Below, in pieces: positions 16,132 to 46,025 of a stretch of DNA of 64,000 bases. The first letter of the stretch is position 1. Each line of letters begins with the position of its first letter. The position numbers and the translations under genes were made by a program. The stretch is from Kiloniella sp. EL199 (GTDB taxonomy: Bacteria > Pseudomonadota > Alphaproteobacteria > Kiloniellales > Kiloniellaceae), in assembly GCF_900313065.1 (NCBI RefSeq), contig NZ_OMPU01000004.1:137474-201473 (forward strand), in the 5' to 3' direction. Under the pieces are notes generated by a model that was given only the letters and a program-made list of their open reading frames with translations, did no database searches and was not told the origin of the DNA.

Positions 16132-16779
16132 ATGAAATTTTATCCTCAGGAACGCGTTGCCCTTTTTATTGACGGATCTAACTTATATGCGACGGCGCGC
16201 GCGCTGGGATTTGATATTGATTACAAAAGGCTTTTATCGTTATTTGCGGAACAGTGCAGTCTTGTCCGTGCTTTTTATTACACAGCACTAATCGAAGATC
16301 AGGAATATTCTCCAATACGTCCACTCGTTGATTGGCTGGATTATAACGGTTACACAATGGTAACCAAGCCAGCCAAAGAGTTTACCGATGCGGCTGGACG
16401 CAAGAAAATCAAAGGTAATATGGATATTGAATTGGCAATTGATGTCATGGAAATGTCCGAACATATCGAACATATTGTTTTATTCTCTGGCGATGGTGAT
16501 TTCCGTCGCCTTATAGAAGCTGTTCAACGCAAAGGTGTTAAGGTAACGGTTGTCTCAACAGTCCGCAGCCAACCTTCTATGATTGCCGATGAACTTAGGC
16601 GTCAGGCAGATATCTTTCTGGATTTGATTGAACTCAAAGACGAAGTTGGTCGTAAGGTATCAGATAATCGTCCTGTTACTCCTAACCCTATTCAGGCCCT
16701 TGATGACCAGCCTGTTGATGAAGACTACGATGATGAATACTATGATGACGAAGACGATTACGATGAAGAACAGGATTAA
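16132..16779 (+). CDS. NYN-domain (LabA/DUF88) putative RNase
   Basis: A 215-residue protein of the LabA/DUF88 NYN group, a PIN-like nuclease fold. The acidic metal-site motifs are visible: ALFIDGSNLY (D14, N17), KGNMDIELAIDVM and LFSGDGDFRRLIEA. Family members are thought to cut RNA, but few have a defined role. The last ~30 residues are extremely acidic (DEDYDDEYYDDEDDYDEEQD), probably disordered. It lies convergent to smpB with a shared hairpin. NYN genes near smpB and rpoZ are common in alphaproteobacteria, which suggests a role in RNA quality control, though that is an inference. Confidence 0.88.
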   Translation: MKFYPQERVALFIDGSNLYATARALGFDIDYKRLLSLFAEQCSLVRAFYYTALIEDQEYSPIRPLVDWLDYNGYTMVTKPAKEFTDAAGRKKIKGNMDIELAIDVMEMSEHIEHIVLFSGDGDFRRLIEAVQRKGVKVTVVSTVRSQPSMIADELRRQADIFLDLIELKDEVGRKVSDNRPVTPNPIQALDDQPVDEDYDDEYYDDEDDYDEEQD

Positions 16780-16808
16780 TATCTTCGGTGTATTCAATCT
16801 GGAAATTA

Positions 16809-16838
16809 AAGGCTATCTGGTATAAATTAGATAGCCTT
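16809..16838. terminator. Bidirectional terminator between the NYN gene and smpB
   Basis: A perfect 10-bp stem AAGGCTATCT / AGATAGCCTT with a 10-base loop. It is followed by GTTTCTT on the plus strand and by TTAATTTCC on the minus strand. It lies between convergent genes and can end both transcripts. Confidence 0.8.
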
Positions 16839-16872
16839 GTTTCTTGGTATTGCCGACTGAAGCCTGCAAAAC

Positions 16873-35995: not shown

Positions 35996-36030
35996 CAAAG
36001 TTAGAACAACCCTAATTTTGATTACATTCT

Positions 36031-37146
36031 ATGGATAAAAAGATGACCACAATGAACAAAATGGCAGAACGTTCCGATTTGTTTGATAACCCTATGGGCC
36101 TGAATGGCTTTGAATTTGTAGAATTCGCAGCCCCAGACCCCCAAGTGCTTATAGATCTCTTTACGACAATTGGATTTTCGCTAGTTGCGAAGCATCGCTC
36201 AAAAAATGTTGATCTCTATCGCCAAGGCAATACGAATTTTATCCTTAATAAAGAAAAAAACAGCCCGGCATATTATTTTGCGGAAGAACATGGCCCTTCC
36301 CCCTGTGGTATGGCGTTCAGAGTGGATAATGCACATCAAGCTTATAACAGGGCGTTGGAACTTGGTGCCCAACCGATGGATATTCCCTGCGGCCCGATGG
36401 AACTCAAGCTGCCTGCAATCAAAGGTATTGGCGGTGCACCGATCTATTTAATTGATCGCTATGAGGACGGGTCCAGTATTTATGATATCGATTTCGAGTA
36501 CCTACCCGATATGGACAGAAATCCGATTGGTTATGGCATGGATATCATCGATCATCTCACACACAACGTCTATCGTGGTCGCATGGCCTATTGGGCTGAT
36601 TTCTATGAGGAATTCTTTAACTTTAAAGAAATTCGTTTCTTTGATATCAAGGGCGAATACACTGGCCTAACGTCGAAAGCAATGACGGCACCTGACGGAA
36701 AAATTCGTATTCCCTTGAACGAAGAATCTTCAGCTGGTAAAGGCCAGATCGAAGAATATCTAATGAAGTTTAATGGCGAAGGCATTCAGCATATCGCATT
36801 AACGACACCAGATATTTATAAGACAATATCAGACATGCGCGCCAATGGCGTTGAGTTTATGGATGCTCCCCCAGCAACCTACTACGAAATGCTGGACGAT
36901 CGCCTCCCCGGTCATGGTGAAAACCCGGAAGAGCTAAAAAAACTCGGTATTCTTTTAGATGGCGCAACAGAAGCAGGTGATCCACGCCTTCTGCTTCAAA
37001 TCTTTACCAAGTGCGTCATCGGCCCTGCCTTTATTGAAATCATTCAGCGTAAAGGTGACGACGGCTTTGGCGAAGGTAACTTCAAAGCCTTGTTTGAATC
37101 AATCGAACGCGATCAAGTTAATCGCGGTGTGTTGAAAACAGATTAG
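36031..37146 (+). CDS. hppD: 4-hydroxyphenylpyruvate dioxygenase
   Basis: A 371-residue non-haem iron dioxygenase that converts 4-hydroxyphenylpyruvate to homogentisate in tyrosine degradation. The iron ligands are visible as His in [10 protein letters not shown] (about residue 174), His in [12 protein letters not shown] (about 253) and Glu in [11 protein letters not shown] (about 335). The C-terminal [18 protein letters not shown] helix is typical. The rest of the pathway (homogentisate dioxygenase, fumarylacetoacetase) is not here, but maiA with a MarR regulator lies 8.5 kb away. Expression is probably controlled by the palindrome at 35785-35802. Confidence 0.95.
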
Positions 37147-37164
37147 GTTTTACGCTGAAATTTT

Positions 37165-37202
37165 AAAAAGAACCCTGGATTTATCAATCCAGGGTTCTTT
37201 TT
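37165..37202. terminator. Bidirectional terminator between hppD and the aldehyde dehydrogenase gene
   Basis: A perfect 17-bp stem AAAAAGAACCCTGGATT with a four-base loop and its complement ending in TTTTT. It lies between two convergent genes and has A/T runs on both sides, so it should work in both directions. Confidence 0.96.
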
Positions 37203-37237
37203 ACTGCCTCTTGATCAATATACAATCTAATTCCTAG

Positions 37238-38725
37238 TTAATTATTGATCCAGATTGTCTTGGTTTGAGTGTATTGCGCCAGCGCTTCGGTACCATTATC
37301 ACGCGCCAAAGAACCAGATTGCTTATAACCGCCAAAGGGCGTTTTAATATCTCCTTCGGAGAAACCATTTACAGACACAGTTCCGCAAGGCAGCGAACGG
37401 GCCATATGAATAACCCGATCAATATCCCGGGAAAAAATTGTCGCATGTAGTCCATAATCTGTATCACAGGCTATCGCCAGAGCATCATCCACTGATTGTA
37501 TTGGCATGATCCCGAGTACTGGACCAAAAATTTCCTCACGTGCTATTTTCATATCCGGGGTAACATTCTGAAAGATCGTCGGTTCTATAAAACAGCCCGG
37601 TAAATTACTGTGTCCTCCCATAATTAGCTGAGCACCTTCATCTTGGCCACTTTGAATATAATTCATGACCATTTCCTTATGATTTTTGGTAATCATAGAG
37701 CCAATATCAGTAGCTGTATCCAGCGGATCTCCAAGACGAAACTTTTTAACACGTTCACTTACTCGAGCTGTAAATTCTTCGATTAGAGGGGCGGCAATAA
37801 GCTGGCGCATATTAGCTGAACAATTTTGCCCTCCATTCCAAAAAGCGGACATAGCAGCATGTTCAATCAAATTATCATTGATCACAGCATCATCAAGCAC
37901 AATAAATGGGCTTTTACCCCCCATCTCAAGACCTACACCTTTAAGGTTGCTATCTCCGGCATAACGCAAAAACATCCGGCCAACCTCAGTTGATCCAGTG
38001 AAGGAGACTGTATCTATATCATTATGTAGGCCAATAGCTTGACCTGCTGTGTGACCATAGCCTGGAAGAATATTAATAACACCAGCAGGCACACCTGCTT
38101 CTTGCATCAACTCTGCCAAACGAATAGTGGTGAGTGGTGTTTGTTCCGCTGGCTTAATCACTGCTGAACAACCAGCGGCAAGTGCGGGGGCAATTTTCCA
38201 GGCGGCCATTACAAGTGGGAAATTCCAAGGTAAAACTGCCCCGGCAATACCTGCAGGTTCTTTTATAATCAATGCTAATGCACTTGGGCCAGTAGGAGCA
38301 ATTTTACCAAACGTTTTATCAGTTAATTCTGCGTACCACTGAAAAAAGTTTGGTACTTCTGTGCCTATTTCATGAAGGCAATCAGTAATTGTTTTACCAG
38401 TATCCAAACTTTCAAGAACAGCCAACTCATTTGCATGTTCTCGTACCAAACTAGCTACTTTTAAAAGAATTTCCTTGCGGTACTCTGGTTCAGTGCGAGA
38501 CCATGTACCATCATTAAAAACGCGTCTTGCGGCAACAACAGCGCGATCGACATCTGCAGATTTGCAATGGGCAACACTCGTTAAAACTTGGCCAGTGGCT
38601 GGATTGATTGTTTCAAATTTATCGCCATCGTCTGCATCACAAAATGCCCCATCAATGAAAGCTTGACCATTGGGAGACAATTTCGCCGCTATAGATTGAA
38701 ATTCTGTATAAGAAAGAGTCATCAA
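37238..38725 (-). CDS. NAD(P)-dependent aldehyde dehydrogenase (PuuC-like)
   Basis: A 495-residue aldehyde dehydrogenase. The coenzyme-binding loop is FTGSTEVGR, the general base glutamate is in LEMGGKSPF, and the catalytic cysteine is in WNGGQNCSAN. Overall it is close to the PuuC/AldA group, which oxidises gamma-glutamyl-aminobutyraldehyde or similar aldehydes, but substrate cannot be read from sequence. Its first codons overlap the end of the epoxide hydrolase gene by four bases (ATGA), so the two are co-translated. A shared route, epoxide to diol to aldehyde to acid, is plausible but inferred. Confidence 0.92.
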   Translation of the reverse strand: MMTLSYTEFQSIAAKLSPNGQAFIDGAFCDADDGDKFETINPATGQVLTSVAHCKSADVDRAVVAARRVFNDGTWSRTEPEYRKEILLKVASLVREHANELAVLESLDTGKTITDCLHEIGTEVPNFFQWYAELTDKTFGKIAPTGPSALALIIKEPAGIAGAVLPWNFPLVMAAWKIAPALAAGCSAVIKPAEQTPLTTIRLAELMQEAGVPAGVINILPGYGHTAGQAIGLHNDIDTVSFTGSTEVGRMFLRYAGDSNLKGVGLEMGGKSPFIVLDDAVINDNLIEHAAMSAFWNGGQNCSANMRQLIAAPLIEEFTARVSERVKKFRLGDPLDTATDIGSMITKNHKEMVMNYIQSGQDEGAQLIMGGHSNLPGCFIEPTIFQNVTPDMKIAREEIFGPVLGIMPIQSVDDALAIACDTDYGLHATIFSRDIDRVIHMARSLPCGTVSVNGFSEGDIKTPFGGYKQSGSLARDNGTEALAQYTQTKTIWINN

Positions 38726-39912
38726 AGACCTCCATTATTTGAAGAACGTAAAGAACGTGCAAATTTACGAATATCAGCGAGGAGCATTTCCGGCTCTTCC
38801 ATTGCTGCAAAATGACCACCATGTGGCATCTCTGTCCATTGCTGTATGTTGTATATCCGGTCTACATAAGAGCGTGGAGGCCAGTTCAACATCTCAGCTG
38901 GGAATACTGCACAGCCTGTGGGCACTTCAACACGGTGCCCTTCTGGTGACAGAATACGACCTCCTTCTTCTCGTCGTCCGTAATAAATCCACGAAGCCGA
39001 ATTGAAGGTTTTCGTTGTAATGTAGATCATAATATTTGTAAGTAGATCATCCTTTGAATGAACTGCTTCAATGTCATTATTTTCAATATCAGACCAAGAA
39101 TGGAACTTTTCCACTAACCAAGCTGCTATACCCACTGGACTATCCATCATTGCATAGCTGAGTGTCTGTGGTCGGGTAGCTTGTTGTGTACGATAGCCAT
39201 TTTGCATAACTTGGTCGTGATCGAACTGTATTTCCCAAGCTTGTTCTTCAGGGGTTTGGGGGCCATCAGGGTGACGCATTGTAAGAACATTAAGGTGAAT
39301 AGCAGCACAAGCAGGTGCATGTTCATAGCCTAACCAAGAACAAATTGCCCCTCCCCAGTCACCTCCTTGTGCCAGATAGCTGTCATACTCCAGAACCTGA
39401 CACATCAAAGAATTGATAACGCCCGCAATTTTTCGAGGTCCATATGGACGTGGAGGTCGGCCAGAAAAAGCAAATCCAGGCAAAGATGGCGCAATGACTG
39501 TAAAGGCATCCTTTACGTCACCACCAAAACGTTCCGGATGTGCTAGTGGCTCTATCAGATTGTAAAATTCTGCGACAGATCCAGGCCAACCATGACTTAT
39601 CATCAATGGTATAGGGTTATCACCACTACCTTCTTCATATATGAAATGCATGTCGATACCTTCGACAATGGCTCTGCAATTCGTGAAGCTATTTATTTTC
39701 GCTTCCTGGGCTCGCCAGTCAAAATCATTAACCCAATAAACACAAAGCTCCTTGAGGTAATTCATATTAGTTCCATAATCCCATCCCCCATCATTGGGCA
39801 TTTCGTGCCAAGGGTAATTCGCAACACGTTCCTTTATTTGTTTGAGAGTTTCATCTGCTACAAAAAACTGGAATGGTGTCACTTGCGGGTTGGAAAAAAT
39901 ACAATCTGTCAA
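38722..39912 (-). CDS. Epoxide hydrolase, alpha/beta-hydrolase fold
   Basis: A 396-residue epoxide hydrolase with the N-terminal EHN domain (about residues 10-115) that microsomal-type enzymes use. The oxyanion-hole motif HGWPGS starts at H107. The nucleophile is D185 in GGDWGG, and the catalytic histidine is H367 in PHGGHFAAME. It opens epoxides to vicinal diols. The coding sequence looks richer in A and T than the housekeeping genes. It is the first gene of a two-gene unit with the aldehyde dehydrogenase, and lies about 245 bases downstream of the end of the MocR regulator gene. Confidence 0.92.
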   Translation of the reverse strand: MTDCIFSNPQVTPFQFFVADETLKQIKERVANYPWHEMPNDGGWDYGTNMNYLKELCVYWVNDFDWRAQEAKINSFTNCRAIVEGIDMHFIYEEGSGDNPIPLMISHGWPGSVAEFYNLIEPLAHPERFGGDVKDAFTVIAPSLPGFAFSGRPPRPYGPRKIAGVINSLMCQVLEYDSYLAQGGDWGGAICSWLGYEHAPACAAIHLNVLTMRHPDGPQTPEEQAWEIQFDHDQVMQNGYRTQQATRPQTLSYAMMDSPVGIAAWLVEKFHSWSDIENNDIEAVHSKDDLLTNIMIYITTKTFNSASWIYYGRREEGGRILSPEGHRVEVPTGCAVFPAEMLNWPPRSYVDRIYNIQQWTEMPHGGHFAAMEEPEMLLADIRKFARSLRSSNNGGL

Positions 39913-40157
39913 CGGACCAAATCCTCAATCTGAAAGGGTGATGCTCTGTCATAATTGTTCAGCATCTTCCATATCAAATAACGAATATTTAGCTCTTTCG
40001 GCGAGAGACAGGTAAAGGCTTTCGAAAGGACAGTTGACGATATTAAAGATATCCCTCAACTTATTAATAGTGAATTACAATATGAATAATTATTACAAAT
40101 CAAATAGATAAAAAGTATTGTTGCAAGATTAAGATTACTCATTTGATTTAATTCAAA

Positions 40158-41615
40158 TTATAACATGGCACGAACTTCATCTGCGATCAGTTGCAATCCC
40201 GCGTCCATTTTGGATACAGGAACATACGCAAATCCAAGACGAAAACTGCGATTATCATTATTATTTAAATAATAGTCTTGGCCTCGATCCACGAGAACAC
40301 CTTTTTCACTCAAACGGTTTGCTAATTCACTTGCATCAAAGTTATCAGGCCCAGTGAGCCAAAATGAAGTTCCACCCTCAGATTGAGTATGTTTGAGCAT
40401 GTTGAGGTGCTTTGTCAATGCAGAGTACATAGCATGCCAACGCTTCTTGTAACGTCGCTCAATATTACGTAAGTGTGCATCGTAAAAACCTAATTGAAAA
40501 AATAAGGCTACAATTTCTTGTACGATTGTTGGTGGATGTCGCATCATAACACCACGGGCAATTCGAGCCTCGCGAATAATGTCTCGATGGGCAACAATGA
40601 AACCTAATCTAATTCCTGGAGAAATGGTTTTTGAGAGACTGCCAATATAAATAACTCGTCCATTTTTATCTAAAGAACGTATTGATGGAGACGATTGAGC
40701 CACATAATTCATTTCTGCCTCATAATCGTCCTCTACAATAAGAAAATCTTTCTTTTCAGCCATCTCGAGTAATTCTTCACGACGATGTTGATTCATAGTC
40801 ACCATGGTTGGGAACTGATGACTGGGCGTCGTAAAAGCCAGCTTACAGCCAGTAGGAATAGCAGAAGGAATCAATCCTTGATCATCAATAGGTACACCAA
40901 TTAACTCATTGCCAGATAATCGAAACGCATTACGAGCTCCAAAAAAACCAGGGTCTTCTAATGCGATCGGACGTCGATTTTGAGCAAAGATGGTACCTAG
41001 AATAAACAAGGCATTTTGTGCGCCAAGGGTAATAAGAATTTCATCTTCATCAGCATAAATACCACGTGTATTTAATAATCTTTGTCGTAATTGCTGCACC
41101 AGATGTGGACTGTCACTTTCAACGGAATCACTTGCCCAAACGGGCATTTTTTTACGTCCTAGGGCTTGTCGGGTACATTCGCGCCAACCATCCACAGGGA
41201 ACAAATCAGGATCAATTTGATTATAAATGAAGGGATAAGGATAACTTTGCCAATCTAAAGGGTTGACCACTGGAACCAATTCATTTGATTGAAATTTAAC
41301 AGGGCACGAGATGTTATTTTCCGTTGTATTTTCTGGTGTTGTCTCTTTAGGGATCACGACATCCGAGTTCACAAAATACCCTGATCTATCACGAGATACC
41401 AAAAAATCCAAATCCACAAGCCGATTATAAGCTGCAAACACAGTATTACGTGACACACCCAGTTGATTTGCCAATTTCCGACATGAAGGTAACGGGCGAT
41501 CAATAGCTAATGCCCCTGAAATAATTGCTGCGCTAACGGATTCGCAGATTTGATCGCGTAAACTTAAGGTCGAATGTTCGGGTAATTTGGTAAACCTGGG
41601 CGTCGTTGAACTCAA
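40158..41615 (-). CDS. MocR-type (GntR/aminotransferase) transcriptional regulator
   Basis: A 485-residue regulator made of an N-terminal GntR winged helix (about residues 15-80, LPSCRKLANQLGVSRNTVFA) fused to a fold type I aminotransferase-like domain. The PLP lysine is in GSLSKTISPGIRLG, so it probably senses PLP or an amino compound. Such proteins (PdxR, GabR) bind direct repeats and often regulate a divergent gene. Here the gene is divergent from a TRAP transporter operon, and three direct repeats lie between them. It lies upstream of, and in the same direction as, the epoxide hydrolase-aldehyde dehydrogenase pair. Confidence 0.93.
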   Translation of the reverse strand: MSSTTPRFTKLPEHSTLSLRDQICESVSAAIISGALAIDRPLPSCRKLANQLGVSRNTVFAAYNRLVDLDFLVSRDRSGYFVNSDVVIPKETTPENTTENNISCPVKFQSNELVPVVNPLDWQSYPYPFIYNQIDPDLFPVDGWRECTRQALGRKKMPVWASDSVESDSPHLVQQLRQRLLNTRGIYADEDEILITLGAQNALFILGTIFAQNRRPIALEDPGFFGARNAFRLSGNELIGVPIDDQGLIPSAIPTGCKLAFTTPSHQFPTMVTMNQHRREELLEMAEKKDFLIVEDDYEAEMNYVAQSSPSIRSLDKNGRVIYIGSLSKTISPGIRLGFIVAHRDIIREARIARGVMMRHPPTIVQEIVALFFQLGFYDAHLRNIERRYKKRWHAMYSALTKHLNMLKHTQSEGGTSFWLTGPDNFDASELANRLSEKGVLVDRGQDYYLNNNDNRSFRLGFAYVPVSKMDAGLQLIADEVRAML

Positions 41616-41653
41616 TTATTTACTCCTAATCAATACATCCCTTATTCCACAAA

Positions 41654-41710
41654 GGCTATGCGATTCTTCTAACGCAAGCTATGTGTTTCTGTTATACAGG
41701 CTATGCGATT
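41654..41710 (+). promoter_or_regulatory. Three direct repeats in the MocR/TRAP divergent promoter
   Basis: Copies are GGCTATGCGATT (41654-41665), AGCTATGTGTTT (41677-41688) and GGCTATGCGATT (41699-41710). Starts are 23 and 22 bases apart, close to two helical turns, so all three face the same side of the DNA. This is the expected layout for a MocR-type binding site and lies between the mocR gene and the TRAP binding protein gene. Confidence 0.78.
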
Positions 41711-41831
41711 TTTACTTTACTCATCAGGTATCTTCTCGTCTGTCCCTTTATTTCGCGCGATCTGTCACTTTCAATGTGCTCTGACCAGCTTAATGCTAAG
41801 CGAAGAAAAAAAATGTCAATGGGAGGTTTCG

Positions 41832-42872
41832 ATGAAGTTAAAATTTATAGGAAAATTGCTGTGTGCAGCTTCAGTTATTACAATATTCACACAAACAGTA
41901 GCTGCAGAAACAGTCTTGAAGCTCGGCACTGTCGGGCGTTTAGGTATGCCTATTGGCGATGCCATTGACCAAGCTTTGATTCCCACCTTAACCAAAGTCT
42001 CAGGAGGACAGATGAGTGTTGAACCGCATTATCGGGGGTCACTATGCGGAGAACAAACTTGTGGGGAGCAAGCTAATCAAGGGCTTTTACAACTTTGGAC
42101 AAGTTCTACTGCCAATTTTGGGAACTTTGGAACTGCTCTCTCTATTTTTGATTTACCATATATTTTTAAAAGCATCGAAGATGCGGATAGAATTTCTTCT
42201 ACATGGTTGGCAAAAAAACAATGCGATATTGCTGCTGAAGAATCAGGACATGTTTGCTTAACAGTTTATTCAAGCGGTGGTTTCCGTCAATTGGGTAATG
42301 CCTCACGCCCAGTACACGTTCCTTCGGATATGGAAGGTATTAAGTGGCGTGTCACCAAAAGTCCAATTGAATATACGCTAATCAAAAATTGGGGAGCGGT
42401 TCCGGTTCCCTATGACTGGACTCAACTTTATCAAGGGCTTCAAACCGGCGTTGTTTCCGGGCAATATGTTGCAACACCGTGGCAACATATTGCCAAACTT
42501 CATGAAGTCGCAAAATATTACACTCAAATCGGAGGTTCTTGGTCAGGAAATCAACTATCAATGGACAAGCGCCAATATGACAAGTTGAGTGATCAGGAAC
42601 GGGAATGGCTTCACATGGCTGCAGAAGCTTTTGGTCAACGTGTTCAAGAACTTGACCGCCAATGGGTCGCAGATGGCGAAGCTGCTATAAAATCTGAAAT
42701 AAAAGAATGGTACGTACCAACAGAAGATGAGTTAGCACTCTGGCGAGCGGGCGCTATTGATGCCTGGATCAATGCCAAAGGTACTTTTGATCCAGAGACA
42801 GCCACGCGTGTTCTCGAAGAACAAGGAATGACTGATTTCATTGACCAGCTTAAAGCAGCTAACGCTCTTTAA
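41832..42872 (+). CDS. TRAP transporter solute-binding protein (DctP type)
   Basis: A 346-residue periplasmic binding protein of a TRAP system. The start at 41832 follows GGGAGG and gives a clean signal peptide MKLKFIGKLLCAASVITIF ending near TVAA. The fold is recognisable from KLGTVGRLG, PVHVPSDMEGIKWRV and YQGLQTGVVSGQ. It has an unusual set of cysteines: a CGEQTCGEQ repeat near residue 75 and two more about 60-70 residues later (KKQCDIA, GHVCLTV), which could form two disulfides. It is the first gene of a P-M-Q operon and is probably controlled by the MocR protein next door. Confidence 0.92.
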   Translation: MKLKFIGKLLCAASVITIFTQTVAAETVLKLGTVGRLGMPIGDAIDQALIPTLTKVSGGQMSVEPHYRGSLCGEQTCGEQANQGLLQLWTSSTANFGNFGTALSIFDLPYIFKSIEDADRISSTWLAKKQCDIAAEESGHVCLTVYSSGGFRQLGNASRPVHVPSDMEGIKWRVTKSPIEYTLIKNWGAVPVPYDWTQLYQGLQTGVVSGQYVATPWQHIAKLHEVAKYYTQIGGSWSGNQLSMDKRQYDKLSDQEREWLHMAAEAFGQRVQELDRQWVADGEAAIKSEIKEWYVPTEDELALWRAGAIDAWINAKGTFDPETATRVLEEQGMTDFIDQLKAANAL

Positions 42873-42898
42873 AAGAAGATTGGCTTTAATTTCCAATC

Positions 42899-42926
42899 GT
42901 TGGCGCGAAGCTTTCTTCGCGCCAAC
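42899..42926 (+). promoter_or_regulatory. Perfect hairpin between dctP and dctM
   Basis: A 12-bp perfect stem GTTGGCGCGAAG / CTTCGCGCCAAC with a four-base loop, 27 bases after the binding protein stop and followed by a short T-rich stretch. It may partly stop transcription or protect the dctP mRNA 3' end, which would give more binding protein than permease. Confidence 0.75.
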
Positions 42927-42973
42927 TCACTTTTAGTTCTTCAAAGTTTTATTGTGTAAAAAGGGATACGTTA

Positions 42974-44263
42974 ATGGAAAGCATCATACTTTTAGTTGTC
43001 CTTGTACTACTGATTATGCTGGGTGCTCCTGTAGGATTTACTTTAATCTTAATTCCAGTGGTTTATATTCTTATTACAGACGTAGCCCCTATGATTCTGA
43101 TCCCGAGCCAAATGTTCAGTGCCATAGACGCAGTTCCTCTTACGGCTATTCCTTTCTTTATGTTGACTGGTGAGTTGATGACCAGCGCAACCATTACTGA
43201 TCGGTTAGTTGAATTAAGCCAACGTTTAATTGGTCGGATGCGTGGCAGCATGGCACAAGCCAATGTACTAGTTAGCATGTTTTTTGCTGGTATGAACGGG
43301 TCTGTGGTCGCTGATACTGCCACTGTGGGATCACTATTGGTGCCCGCAATGAAACGTGCTGGTTATCCAGGCGCCTTTGCCGCAGCAATCACAGCTGTAA
43401 GCTCTACTATTGGTGGAATTATTCCACCGTCGATTATGATGATTGTTCTGGCAAATGCTGGTGGGATTTCTGTCGGCGCTCTGTTCGCTGGTGGTATCAT
43501 ACCTGGAATCATGATTGGTGCCCTCTTGATGGTGATCAATCATATCATCGCAAAACGTAATAATTTTGAACGTAATGAAGAACCTTTCAGCCTCAAGGCC
43601 ATTGCAATTGTCAGTTATAAATCATCCTTTGCTCTACTGATACCTGCAGTATTGGTGGGGTCTGTTGTATTTGGTATAGCTGGCGTTGTTGAAGCTGGTG
43701 CATTAACTGCAAGTATCGCCCTTTTCGTTGGACTTTTTGTTTATCGCACAATTAATTGGGATAATTGCAAAAGTGCTTTTGAGCGAGCTTTCCGTAATTC
43801 AGCTATGGTATTCATCATTATTGCCGCATCTGGACCGTTCAGTTGGCTGTTAACATCGTTGGGTGCCATTAATGAGCTAGAACAATGGCTGCTTAGTTAT
43901 ACTTATAATCCTTTGCTTTTTGCATTGGTTCTCGTGTTGTTTATCTTTCTTTTAGGCATGGTAATGGATTCAGCAGCAAACATTATTGTTGTCGGCCCAG
44001 TCTTGGTCGATGTGATGGTTAAAGCAGGTTATGCTGATGTTCAAGCTGCACTGGTTGTCGTTGTTGGGTTTTTGATCGGCTCAGTAACTCCGCCTGTTGG
44101 TGTTGCATTCTTTACCGCAGGGGCTATTGCCAAAGTGCGGTTAGAAAAGGTTGCCTTGGCCATGTTACCTTATCTGGTTGCCTTATTCATGCTCTTGTTT
44201 TTATTAATAATTGCACCCCAAATTACAATGTTTTTACCTCAGGCTTTTGGGTTTGTGAAATGA
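42974..44263 (+). CDS. TRAP transporter large permease (DctM type)
   Basis: A 429-residue inner-membrane protein with about 12 membrane segments. DctM features include GAPVGFTLI near the N-terminus, the IPFFMLTGELM and ADTATVGSLLVPAM motifs, and SVTPPVGVAFFTAG near the C-terminus. It forms the translocation path of the TRAP system. In this operon it comes before the small DctQ subunit, the reverse of the usual P-Q-M order. About 100 bases with a perfect hairpin lie between it and dctP. Confidence 0.93.
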   Translation: MESIILLVVLVLLIMLGAPVGFTLILIPVVYILITDVAPMILIPSQMFSAIDAVPLTAIPFFMLTGELMTSATITDRLVELSQRLIGRMRGSMAQANVLVSMFFAGMNGSVVADTATVGSLLVPAMKRAGYPGAFAAAITAVSSTIGGIIPPSIMMIVLANAGGISVGALFAGGIIPGIMIGALLMVINHIIAKRNNFERNEEPFSLKAIAIVSYKSSFALLIPAVLVGSVVFGIAGVVEAGALTASIALFVGLFVYRTINWDNCKSAFERAFRNSAMVFIIIAASGPFSWLLTSLGAINELEQWLLSYTYNPLLFALVLVLFIFLLGMVMDSAANIIVVGPVLVDVMVKAGYADVQAALVVVVGFLIGSVTPPVGVAFFTAGAIAKVRLEKVALAMLPYLVALFMLLFLLIIAPQITMFLPQAFGFVK

Positions 44264-44290
44264 TGCGATTATTTTGTGGAGATTTGCCAA

Positions 44291-44848
44291 ATGGCTGAAA
44301 TTATCAAATTGTTTGATGTTGCGGTCAGTAAAATTCTTACAGCCCTTTGTTCTGTTTTGCTTCTTCTGATGGTAATTTTCACCGTTTATTCTATTGTTAT
44401 GAGATATGTTTTTGAAAATCCACCTGTTTGGGGAGATCTTCTGACTGTACTCAGTAATATCTGGCTCGTTTTTTTCGCTTTAACCCTGACGGTTAGAAAT
44501 AAAGATCATATTGCTCTGGATCTTATATATTCTCTCCTCCCCCTTAATGTTGCTTTTGCAATTCAGCAATTTTGGACTTTGGTAATTGGCGGATTGGGCG
44601 TAATAATGATTATTTATGGAATGGAAGCTGTTGAAACAATGGGGGGTAAATATTGGGAAATGTGGTATTTTACCTGGGAAAATGGGACAATAGTATTCAA
44701 AGAAAATTACATGCCCAAGAAATATGCAATTGCTATCGTACCTATTTCGGGATTTCTTATTTGTATTGCAGCATTAATTTCGGTTTTGGAAGATATTTTT
44801 CGATTAAAGGCAGGAACTTACGAAAGAGCACAGGAAGCAGATCTATAA
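44291..44848 (+). CDS. TRAP transporter small permease (DctQ type)
   Basis: A 185-residue protein with four predicted membrane segments, the size and pattern of DctQ subunits. It contains VFENPPVWGDLLTVLSNIWL and NKDHIALDL, which are family-like. I chose the ATG at 44291 because TGGAG lies about nine bases upstream; a GTG at 44276 covers that site. It ends the P-M-Q operon and converges on maiA with only 22 bases between the stops. It stabilises the large permease in the inner membrane. Confidence 0.88.
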   Translation: MAEIIKLFDVAVSKILTALCSVLLLLMVIFTVYSIVMRYVFENPPVWGDLLTVLSNIWLVFFALTLTVRNKDHIALDLIYSLLPLNVAFAIQQFWTLVIGGLGVIMIIYGMEAVETMGGKYWEMWYFTWENGTIVFKENYMPKKYAIAIVPISGFLICIAALISVLEDIFRLKAGTYERAQEADL

Positions 44849-44870
44849 TTCAGTTTTATGAATTAACTCC

Positions 44871-45524
44871 TCAATTTATTTCTGCATCTATCTGATTTTC
44901 TGGTCGCGCTTTTTCAAAAGCTTCCAACTTCAGACAGTTTTCTTCTATTCTTCTTATCTCAGAAAATTTTGCGATAGAGATATCAAAGCGGTGCGCGTTA
45001 TAGAGTTGGGAAACCAGACAACAATCAGCCATTCCCGGCTCTGTTCCAATACAATATGGCCCTTCTGTTTTACGCATTTTCAAACGCTGTTCAAACGCTG
45101 ATAATCCCTCTAGAACCCAATGCGCGTACCATGTGGATTTTTGATCTTGAGAAAGTAACATTTCCCCCGTTAGGTACTTAAGAACTCGTAGATTGTTTAT
45201 CGGGTGAATGTCACAACAGACCAGTTGAGATAGGCTTCTGACAAAGGCTTTATCGGCGGCATTATTTGGTAATAAATTATGCCCAGACAGGACCTCATCC
45301 AGATATTCAATTATTGCCATTGATTGCGTTAGAGTGCCGTGTTCTTTCGTTTCCAAGACTGGCACAAGTTTTTGTGGATTTATTTCTTTATATTTATCCC
45401 CCAGTTGCTCTCCACCATTTTTAACAAGATGCACAGGTACAATATCGTATTCAACTTTTTTGAGATTCAGAGCAATTCGAACACGGTAAGCCGCTGTTGA
45501 TCTCCAATAGCTATAGAGCTTCAT
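44871..45524 (-). CDS. maiA: Maleylacetoacetate isomerase (zeta-class glutathione transferase)
   Basis: A 217-residue zeta-class GST. The active-site block YWRSTAAYRVRIALNLK matches the SSC/SST-type signature of the family, with the glutathione contacts in NPQKLVPVLE and LTQSMAIIEYLDE. It isomerises maleylacetoacetate to fumarylacetoacetate using glutathione, the step after homogentisate cleavage in tyrosine degradation, so it works downstream of hppD in this window. It follows the marR gene by three bases in the same direction, an operon. The substrate could instead be maleylpyruvate, but hppD favours the tyrosine route. Confidence 0.9.
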   Translation of the reverse strand: MKLYSYWRSTAAYRVRIALNLKKVEYDIVPVHLVKNGGEQLGDKYKEINPQKLVPVLETKEHGTLTQSMAIIEYLDEVLSGHNLLPNNAADKAFVRSLSQLVCCDIHPINNLRVLKYLTGEMLLSQDQKSTWYAHWVLEGLSAFEQRLKMRKTEGPYCIGTEPGMADCCLVSQLYNAHRFDISIAKFSEIRRIEENCLKLEAFEKARPENQIDAEIN

Positions 45525-45527
45525 TGA

Positions 45528-46025
45528 TCAAATATCCTCGACCAGTTTATCCGCCCCAAAGCATTTATCTGCATTTTTCAAAACACGAGCCATAAGCTTT
45601 TCCAGCGTTTCCTTTTCAGTTTCACTCAAACCATCAAGAATTTCCTGTTCGCGTTTCAAGACAAGTGGAATAAGCTCTTGAAGTGTATCGTTCCCCTTCT
45701 CTGTCAAAAGCAAATTCACTTTGCGCTTATCAATCTCATCCACATGGCGTTCTATAAACTCTCGCTCTAAAAGACCTTTGATCGCCCTGCTGACCTGTAC
45801 CTTATCCAGACTGGAATAGTCGACCACTTCGCTAGCTGAAAGCGGTTGGCTATTCCCTAAAACAACCATCACACGCCATTGATATACGGTTAGCCCCTTG
45901 GACTTTGTATAGACTTCGGCAATCGACTGGCTTACAGAGCGGTAAAAAACACGAACTTTATAAGGAAAAAAGTCCTTTAAATCTAATATTTCGCTATCTG
46001 GCTTTATTGAATTCTCATCGGTCAT
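45528..46025 (-). CDS. MarR-family transcriptional regulator
   Basis: A 165-residue winged-helix protein. The MarR core is visible as YQWRVMVVLGNSQPLSASEV, the recognition region DKVQVSRAIKGLLEREFIE and the wing DEIDKRKVNLLLTEKG. MarR proteins bind palindromes as dimers and are released by small aromatic acids. It is in one operon with maiA. Palindromes of the right size lie at the hppD promoter (35785-35802) and in the promoter of the TRAP operon (49103-49128), so it is the best candidate for controlling tyrosine/homogentisate genes. None was found at its own promoter. Confidence 0.9.
   Translation of the reverse strand: MTDENSIKPDSEILDLKDFFPYKVRVFYRSVSQSIAEVYTKSKGLTVYQWRVMVVLGNSQPLSASEVVDYSSLDKVQVSRAIKGLLEREFIERHVDEIDKRKVNLLLTEKGNDTLQELIPLVLKREQEILDGLSETEKETLEKLMARVLKNADKCFGADKLVEDI

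Follow-up and report, generated by a model that had tools for sequence, protein, structure and literature searches.

Two conserved direct repeats, and not a genome-specific repeat array, are the most likely operators of a MocR-type regulator beside a TRAP transporter operon in Kiloniella sp. EL199

Regulators of the MocR family depend on pyridoxal phosphate (PLP) and form head-to-tail dimers. In the survey by Suvorova and Rodionov 2016 (PMC5320631), MocR operators are described as repeats of two to four boxes, in many cases direct, at spacings of whole helical turns, and tripartite ATP-independent periplasmic (TRAP) transporters are placed in the EutR and TauR2 regulons, as is TauMLK in the TauR regulons. 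The TauR2 regulons described there comprise TRAP transporters of unknown specificity along with an aldehyde dehydrogenase and a hydrolase, tauE and oppABCDF being further members, and a second source reports that EnuR controls the TRAP system UehABC (PMC8739950). Published precedents for TRAP transporters under MocR regulators are EutR/EnuR, TauR, and TauR2. Here, we analyzed a 64,000-nucleotide stretch of Kiloniella sp. EL199 (contig NZ_OMPU01000004.1, positions 137,474 to 201,473, hereafter the window) in which a mocR gene diverges from a TRAP operon, an arrangement that the first-pass annotation had called unusual as a regulatory pairing, contrary to the precedents just named. That annotation had also proposed an array of three direct repeats in the intergenic region as the MocR operator. 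The sequence bound by MocR is most likely a different one, namely, a pair of CTGTC boxes adjoining the array, plus a second copy before a catabolic operon. Judged from sequence comparison, it is very probable that MocR controls the TRAP operon through the first site (O1) and a hydrolase–aldehyde dehydrogenase operon through the second (O2) within a self-contained cassette, the array being a separate, genome-specific feature.

The candidate operator O1 (41740..41768, minus strand) reads GTGACAG-N15-GGGACAG, or CTGTCCC..CTGTCAC on the plus strand, with its boxes 22 bp apart, and lies between the divergent predicted promoters of mocR and of dctP, the first gene of the TRAP operon. O2 (40005..40033, plus strand; GAGACAG-N15-AGGACAG) precedes the operon encoding an epoxide-hydrolase-like protein (EH) and an aldehyde dehydrogenase (ALDH), and it is oriented relative to EH as O1 is relative to dctP. 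The conserved direct repeat has the consensus CTGTCCC-N15-CTGTC(A/T)C. For comparison, a scan of a genome collection provided 45 orthologous mocR loci (58-81% identity), chiefly from Rhodobacterales and also from Pelagibius, Labrenzia/Roseibium, and gammaproteobacterial bins. Of the 45 orthologous upstream regions, 43 carry the O1 motif at 12-14 of 14 positions, and its step there is exactly 22. Downstream of mocR, in the gap extending to EH or in 250 nt where the locus is without EH (L057, L065, L068), the O2 motif was found at 12-14 of 14 in all 45 loci, always with a step of 22 and with a full 14/14 match in 33 of them, while only 2 of 180 shuffled gaps attained 12/14. Two loci, L037 and L038, carry about 0.8 and 3.5 kb of extra DNA between mocR and EH, and O2 remains beside EH in both, which supports its assignment as the EH operator. 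Throughout the 64-kb window the motif matched twice, at O1 and O2, both inside the cassette, against 0.05 matches expected; a whole-genome search of 20 genomes, which hold 20 of the 45 loci, yielded 47 matches, of which O1 and O2 sites make up 38, compared with 4 for the reversed motif, and a strict search of the Kiloniella genome itself returned O1 as its single match.

With O1 as the anchor, 19 orthologous upstream regions picked for a comparable start align with the window without gaps as far as a mocR -35 and then, 18 nt further on, a -10. In the window, these predicted elements, placed by their fixed offset from O1, would be CTGATG (41722..41727, minus strand; CTGACA in most orthologues) and TAGCCT (41698..41703, minus strand; TAGGAT and similar hexamers in orthologues). 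Of 43 orthologues, 22 have TAnnnT at the predicted -10 offset; none of the other offsets examined shows the pattern in more than 4. Scans of 41400-42000 for sigma-70 promoters and terminators found no site, so the promoters are placed by alignment alone. By eye, dctP and EH each have a -10-like hexamer, at an equal distance from the nearer box, and the box nearest each target gene lies just upstream of that gene's predicted -35, which makes activation (or effector-relieved control) likely. We propose that MocR binds the conserved repeat, whose boxes lie two helical turns apart, and that an amine-type effector would form an aldimine with PLP, at which point uptake and catabolism would undergo activation (or effector-relieved control); mocR may be autoregulated from O1 as well. 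The cassette would turn an uptake system on and off together with two enzymes, a fairly conventional mode of control.

The three repeats highlighted by the first-pass annotation are present as it described them, between mocR, which starts at 41615 (TTG, minus strand), and the TRAP operon, whose dctP starts at 41832 (ATG, plus strand). Copies R1 (GGCTATGCGATT, 41654..41665) and R2 (AGCTATGTGTTT, 41677..41688) lie in the mocR leader and R3 (GGCTATGCGATT, 41699..41710) overlaps the predicted mocR -10, all three on the plus strand and with start-to-start steps of 23 and 22; the array sits between this -10, of which the TAGCCT hexamer is part of R3, and the mocR start codon. An array score, defined as the summed pairwise identities of three near-equally spaced 12-mers, reached 30 in the 216-nt intergenic region, whereas none of 500 dinucleotide-preserving shuffles did so (shuffle maximum 27). 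Among 296 tiles of 216 nt taken from the real window sequence, one other also scored 30 (tile 16633-16848, three copies, 15-nt step). Tandem Repeats Finder, at a minimum score of 30, made no call on the array, which is therefore no plain tandem duplication whose spacers are well preserved, and the copies share 9-12 of 13 positions in their cores and 4-6 of 10 in their flanks. Among 385 genomes of the class, the paired pattern GCTATGYGWTT-N9-14-GCTATGYGWTT occurred solely in the window's own, which also holds five single copies outside the array and in which no second array was found. In the orthologous upstream regions, R1 is absent, the array exceeded the shuffle level in 0 of 45, and the best match to GGCTATGCGATT was 7-9 of 12, as in shuffles. 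This comparison had been set beforehand as the test of the named repeats, and it shows their loss; together with the single genome bearing the paired pattern, it led us to reject the array as a conserved operator. The triple repeat is real, but private to one genome.

That the operator used by MocR consists of the three GGCTATGCGATT-type repeats is very improbable: the repeats are genuine, lie two helical turns apart like known MocR direct repeats (PMC5320631), and share their strand sense with the CTGTC boxes, but they stand at shuffle level in every orthologue despite the similarity of the regulators, bear by eye little likeness to those boxes, and are rivalled by the CTGTC repeat, which is conserved both in place and at a second target. 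The expectation of an operator made of direct repeats two helical turns apart survives in the CTGTC boxes, and only the choice of repeats fails. It is moderately probable instead that the array is an expansion in the mocR leader that is neutral or has a mild tuning effect. The distance from the -10 to the start codon is 82 nt in the window, against 31-41 nt (27 of 33) or 60-68 nt (6 of 33) in comparable orthologues, 12 loci being omitted because their match start was not comparable or O1 was missing. In the nearest orthologue, L071, this leader measures 39 nt, so that the window exceeds it by about 43 nt, close to the 45 nt of two extra array copies. The longer leader makes the array look like a local expansion, and its uniqueness to this genome points the same way, although its spacers, unlike its cores, are too diverged for recent slippage. 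The array would probably have arisen around the mocR -10; most likely it is neutral or adjusts mocR expression slightly.

A regulatory role specific to this genome appears unlikely, whether the array serves as the operator of another resident regulator that captured mocR after transfer or as an auxiliary MocR site; its helical phasing, its better-kept cores, its position over the predicted mocR -10 and leader, which suits repression, and the absence of the cassette from congeners would fit, but the genome holds no second array and offers no candidate regulator, and an operator and a recent expansion are inseparable with the methods used. Slightly more doubtful still is the fuller scenario in which, after transfer, the lineage evolved a helically phased array over the -10 and leader and control of mocR was thereby captured by a resident regulator or, via a second sequence, by MocR itself; if true, this capture would be a visible case of an acquired regulon rewired at its point of entry. 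Several observations count against our preferred reading of two conserved operators with a separate array. O1 is absent from L069 and L072, and several of the 45 loci are near relatives (e.g., L049, L050, L051, and L075), so that the counts given above are not independent events. In the Kiloniella genome the loose pair GACAG-N17-GACAG occurs at chance level (14 matches, 14 in the control), so operator specificity would have to come from the longer boxes. A position weight matrix trained on O1 scores the window's O2 at 6.4, near a chance hit at 6.1, and O2 has a consensus of its own. With regard to the array, L071 lacks the core at its -10, so derivation of the array from the -10 is conjectural, and the better preservation of cores than of flanks fits a binding-site array more than neutral decay. 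As search tools, the loose pair was rejected as a genome-wide regulon finder because of its chance-level matches, and the O1-derived matrix proved weak for finding O2 at several loci including the window, where direct comparison of the boxes did better.

The regulator itself is encoded by mocR (40158..41615, minus strand; 485 aa, TTG start), assigned by Pfam, by the NCBIfam PdxR model, and by alignment to GabR. Its N-terminus carries a GntR winged helix-turn-helix (wHTH; PF00392, residues 20-82, 51 bits) and its C-terminus a class I aminotransferase-like domain (Aminotran_1_2; PF00155, residues 171-475, 66.8 bits), in which the PLP-binding lysine aligns with that of GabR, named Lys312 in PMC8739950; the lysine motif was conserved in 45/45 orthologues. 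The features of the MocR/GabR subfamily, i.e., wHTH, aminotransferase domain, PLP lysine, and repeated boxes (here the candidate operators O1 and O2), were thus found, in agreement with the family assignment made by the first-pass annotation. The NCBIfam PdxR model NF052282 scored 356.9 bits, above its cutoff of 320, and taken at its name would make the protein a PdxR controlling vitamin B6 synthesis. This is scarcely credible: no homologue of pdxS (PF01680) was found in the genome (0/1), with control searches positive in 10/14, and the conserved neighbors of mocR are TRAP, hydrolase, and ALDH genes, the pyridoxine synthesis genes (pdxST) not being among them. We rejected the PdxR identity on the lack of pdxS, and the name is likely an automatic misnaming of this TRAP-linked regulator. 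Two resident MocR paralogues (45% and 38% identical) showed no CTGTC-type operator within the stretches of about 10 kb taken around them. In the genome of L071, a second MocR (L100 4945-6494, 49% identical) bears the same operator motif at both gene ends, which suggests that the motif belongs to this branch of MocR; by eye, the gene adjoins an apparent sulfatase and a class III aminotransferase. Additionally, the alpha proteobacterium HTCC2255 has a third CTGTC-22-CTGTC site (L101 5441-5469) before a gene for a flavin adenine dinucleotide (FAD)-dependent oxidoreductase, followed by genes that by eye resemble a putrescine-type ABC transporter.

The cassette as a whole, ALDH-EH-O2-mocR-O1-dctPMQ, spans 7.7 kb between hppD and maiA (37147..44870, bounds taken at the nearest gene ends). 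On the plus strand it comprises dctP, a TRAP substrate-binding protein with an ATG start (41832..42872; Pfam DctP), dctM, the large permease (42974..44263; NCBIfam TIGR00786 above cutoff), and dctQ, the small permease (44276..44848), which had no NCBIfam hit and was assigned by position, with orthologues in 38/45 loci. On the minus strand lie EH, an epoxide-hydrolase-like alpha/beta hydrolase (38722..39912; Pfam EHN and Abhydrolase_1), and ALDH (37238..38725; Pfam Aldedh). Solved structures gave generic DctP proteins as best matches, and no inference on the TRAP substrate was drawn from them. Among the orthologous loci, some of which are incomplete, mocR was accompanied by DctP in 43/45, EH in 42/45, and ALDH in 26/45, which supports the pairing of this regulator with the TRAP operon put forward in the first-pass annotation; no flanking gene beyond the cassette was common to more than 4 of the 45 loci. 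Protein and DNA searches did not find the cassette in eight congeners (one 77% complete), where the best MocR was about 43% and the best DctP about 30% identical. Since hppD and maiA are adjacent, about 80-95 nt apart and without the cassette, in 5 of these 8 congeners, the cassette was probably acquired laterally, the simplest reading as against loss in the congeners; the same adjacency led us to reject a functional link to the tyrosine/homogentisate genes encoding HPPD and maleylacetoacetate isomerase. Composition was not distinctive (GC 0.416 inside the cassette versus 0.431 and 0.437 outside), no tRNA gene was found in 36000-46000, and no long repeat was found flanking the cassette. Behind HPPD, at 37164-37203, stands a perfect inverted repeat that resembles a terminator.

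Together, these observations replace a plausible but wrong operator with a widely conserved candidate pair, and they define a putative two-operator regulon of TRAP uptake, hydrolase, and ALDH that appears to move as a unit among marine proteobacteria. They also call for caution with the NCBI PdxR model, which names this regulator although its genome is without pdxS. The operator offers a direct route to the cassette substrate through reporter induction.

Searches of a limited collection of papers for MocR with epoxide hydrolase and TRAP, and for TauR2, found no further paper on the cassette, which can be set beside the known systems as follows. With PdxR (NCBIfam NF052282) the regulator shares a score above the model cutoff, and it differs in the missing pdxS and in the other conserved neighbors of mocR. 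GabR of Bacillus subtilis resembles it in domain architecture, PLP lysine, and a direct-repeat operator (PMC5320631), while the target genes and the box sequence differ. EutR/EnuR (TeaABC/UehABC) is likewise a MocR regulator of marine alphaproteobacteria that governs catabolic genes and an operon for TRAP uptake (PMC5320631, PMC8739950); as described there, however, it is a repressor with a palindromic operator (ATTGTnnnnnnACAAT), whereas the cassette has direct repeats 22 bp apart and other enzymes. As for TauR2, its motif is said to resemble the TauR motif CTGGACYTAA (PMC5320631), with which the cassette motif CTGTCCC-N15-CTGTCWC shares by eye just GGAC, TauR2 being compared here through that description. 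In its targets the cassette is like the TauR2 regulon, since both combine TRAP, ALDH, and hydrolase genes (matched here by Pfam family), and the orthologues of this mocR include Roseovarius, Roseibium, and Labrenzia, a further likeness to TauR2 (PMC5320631).
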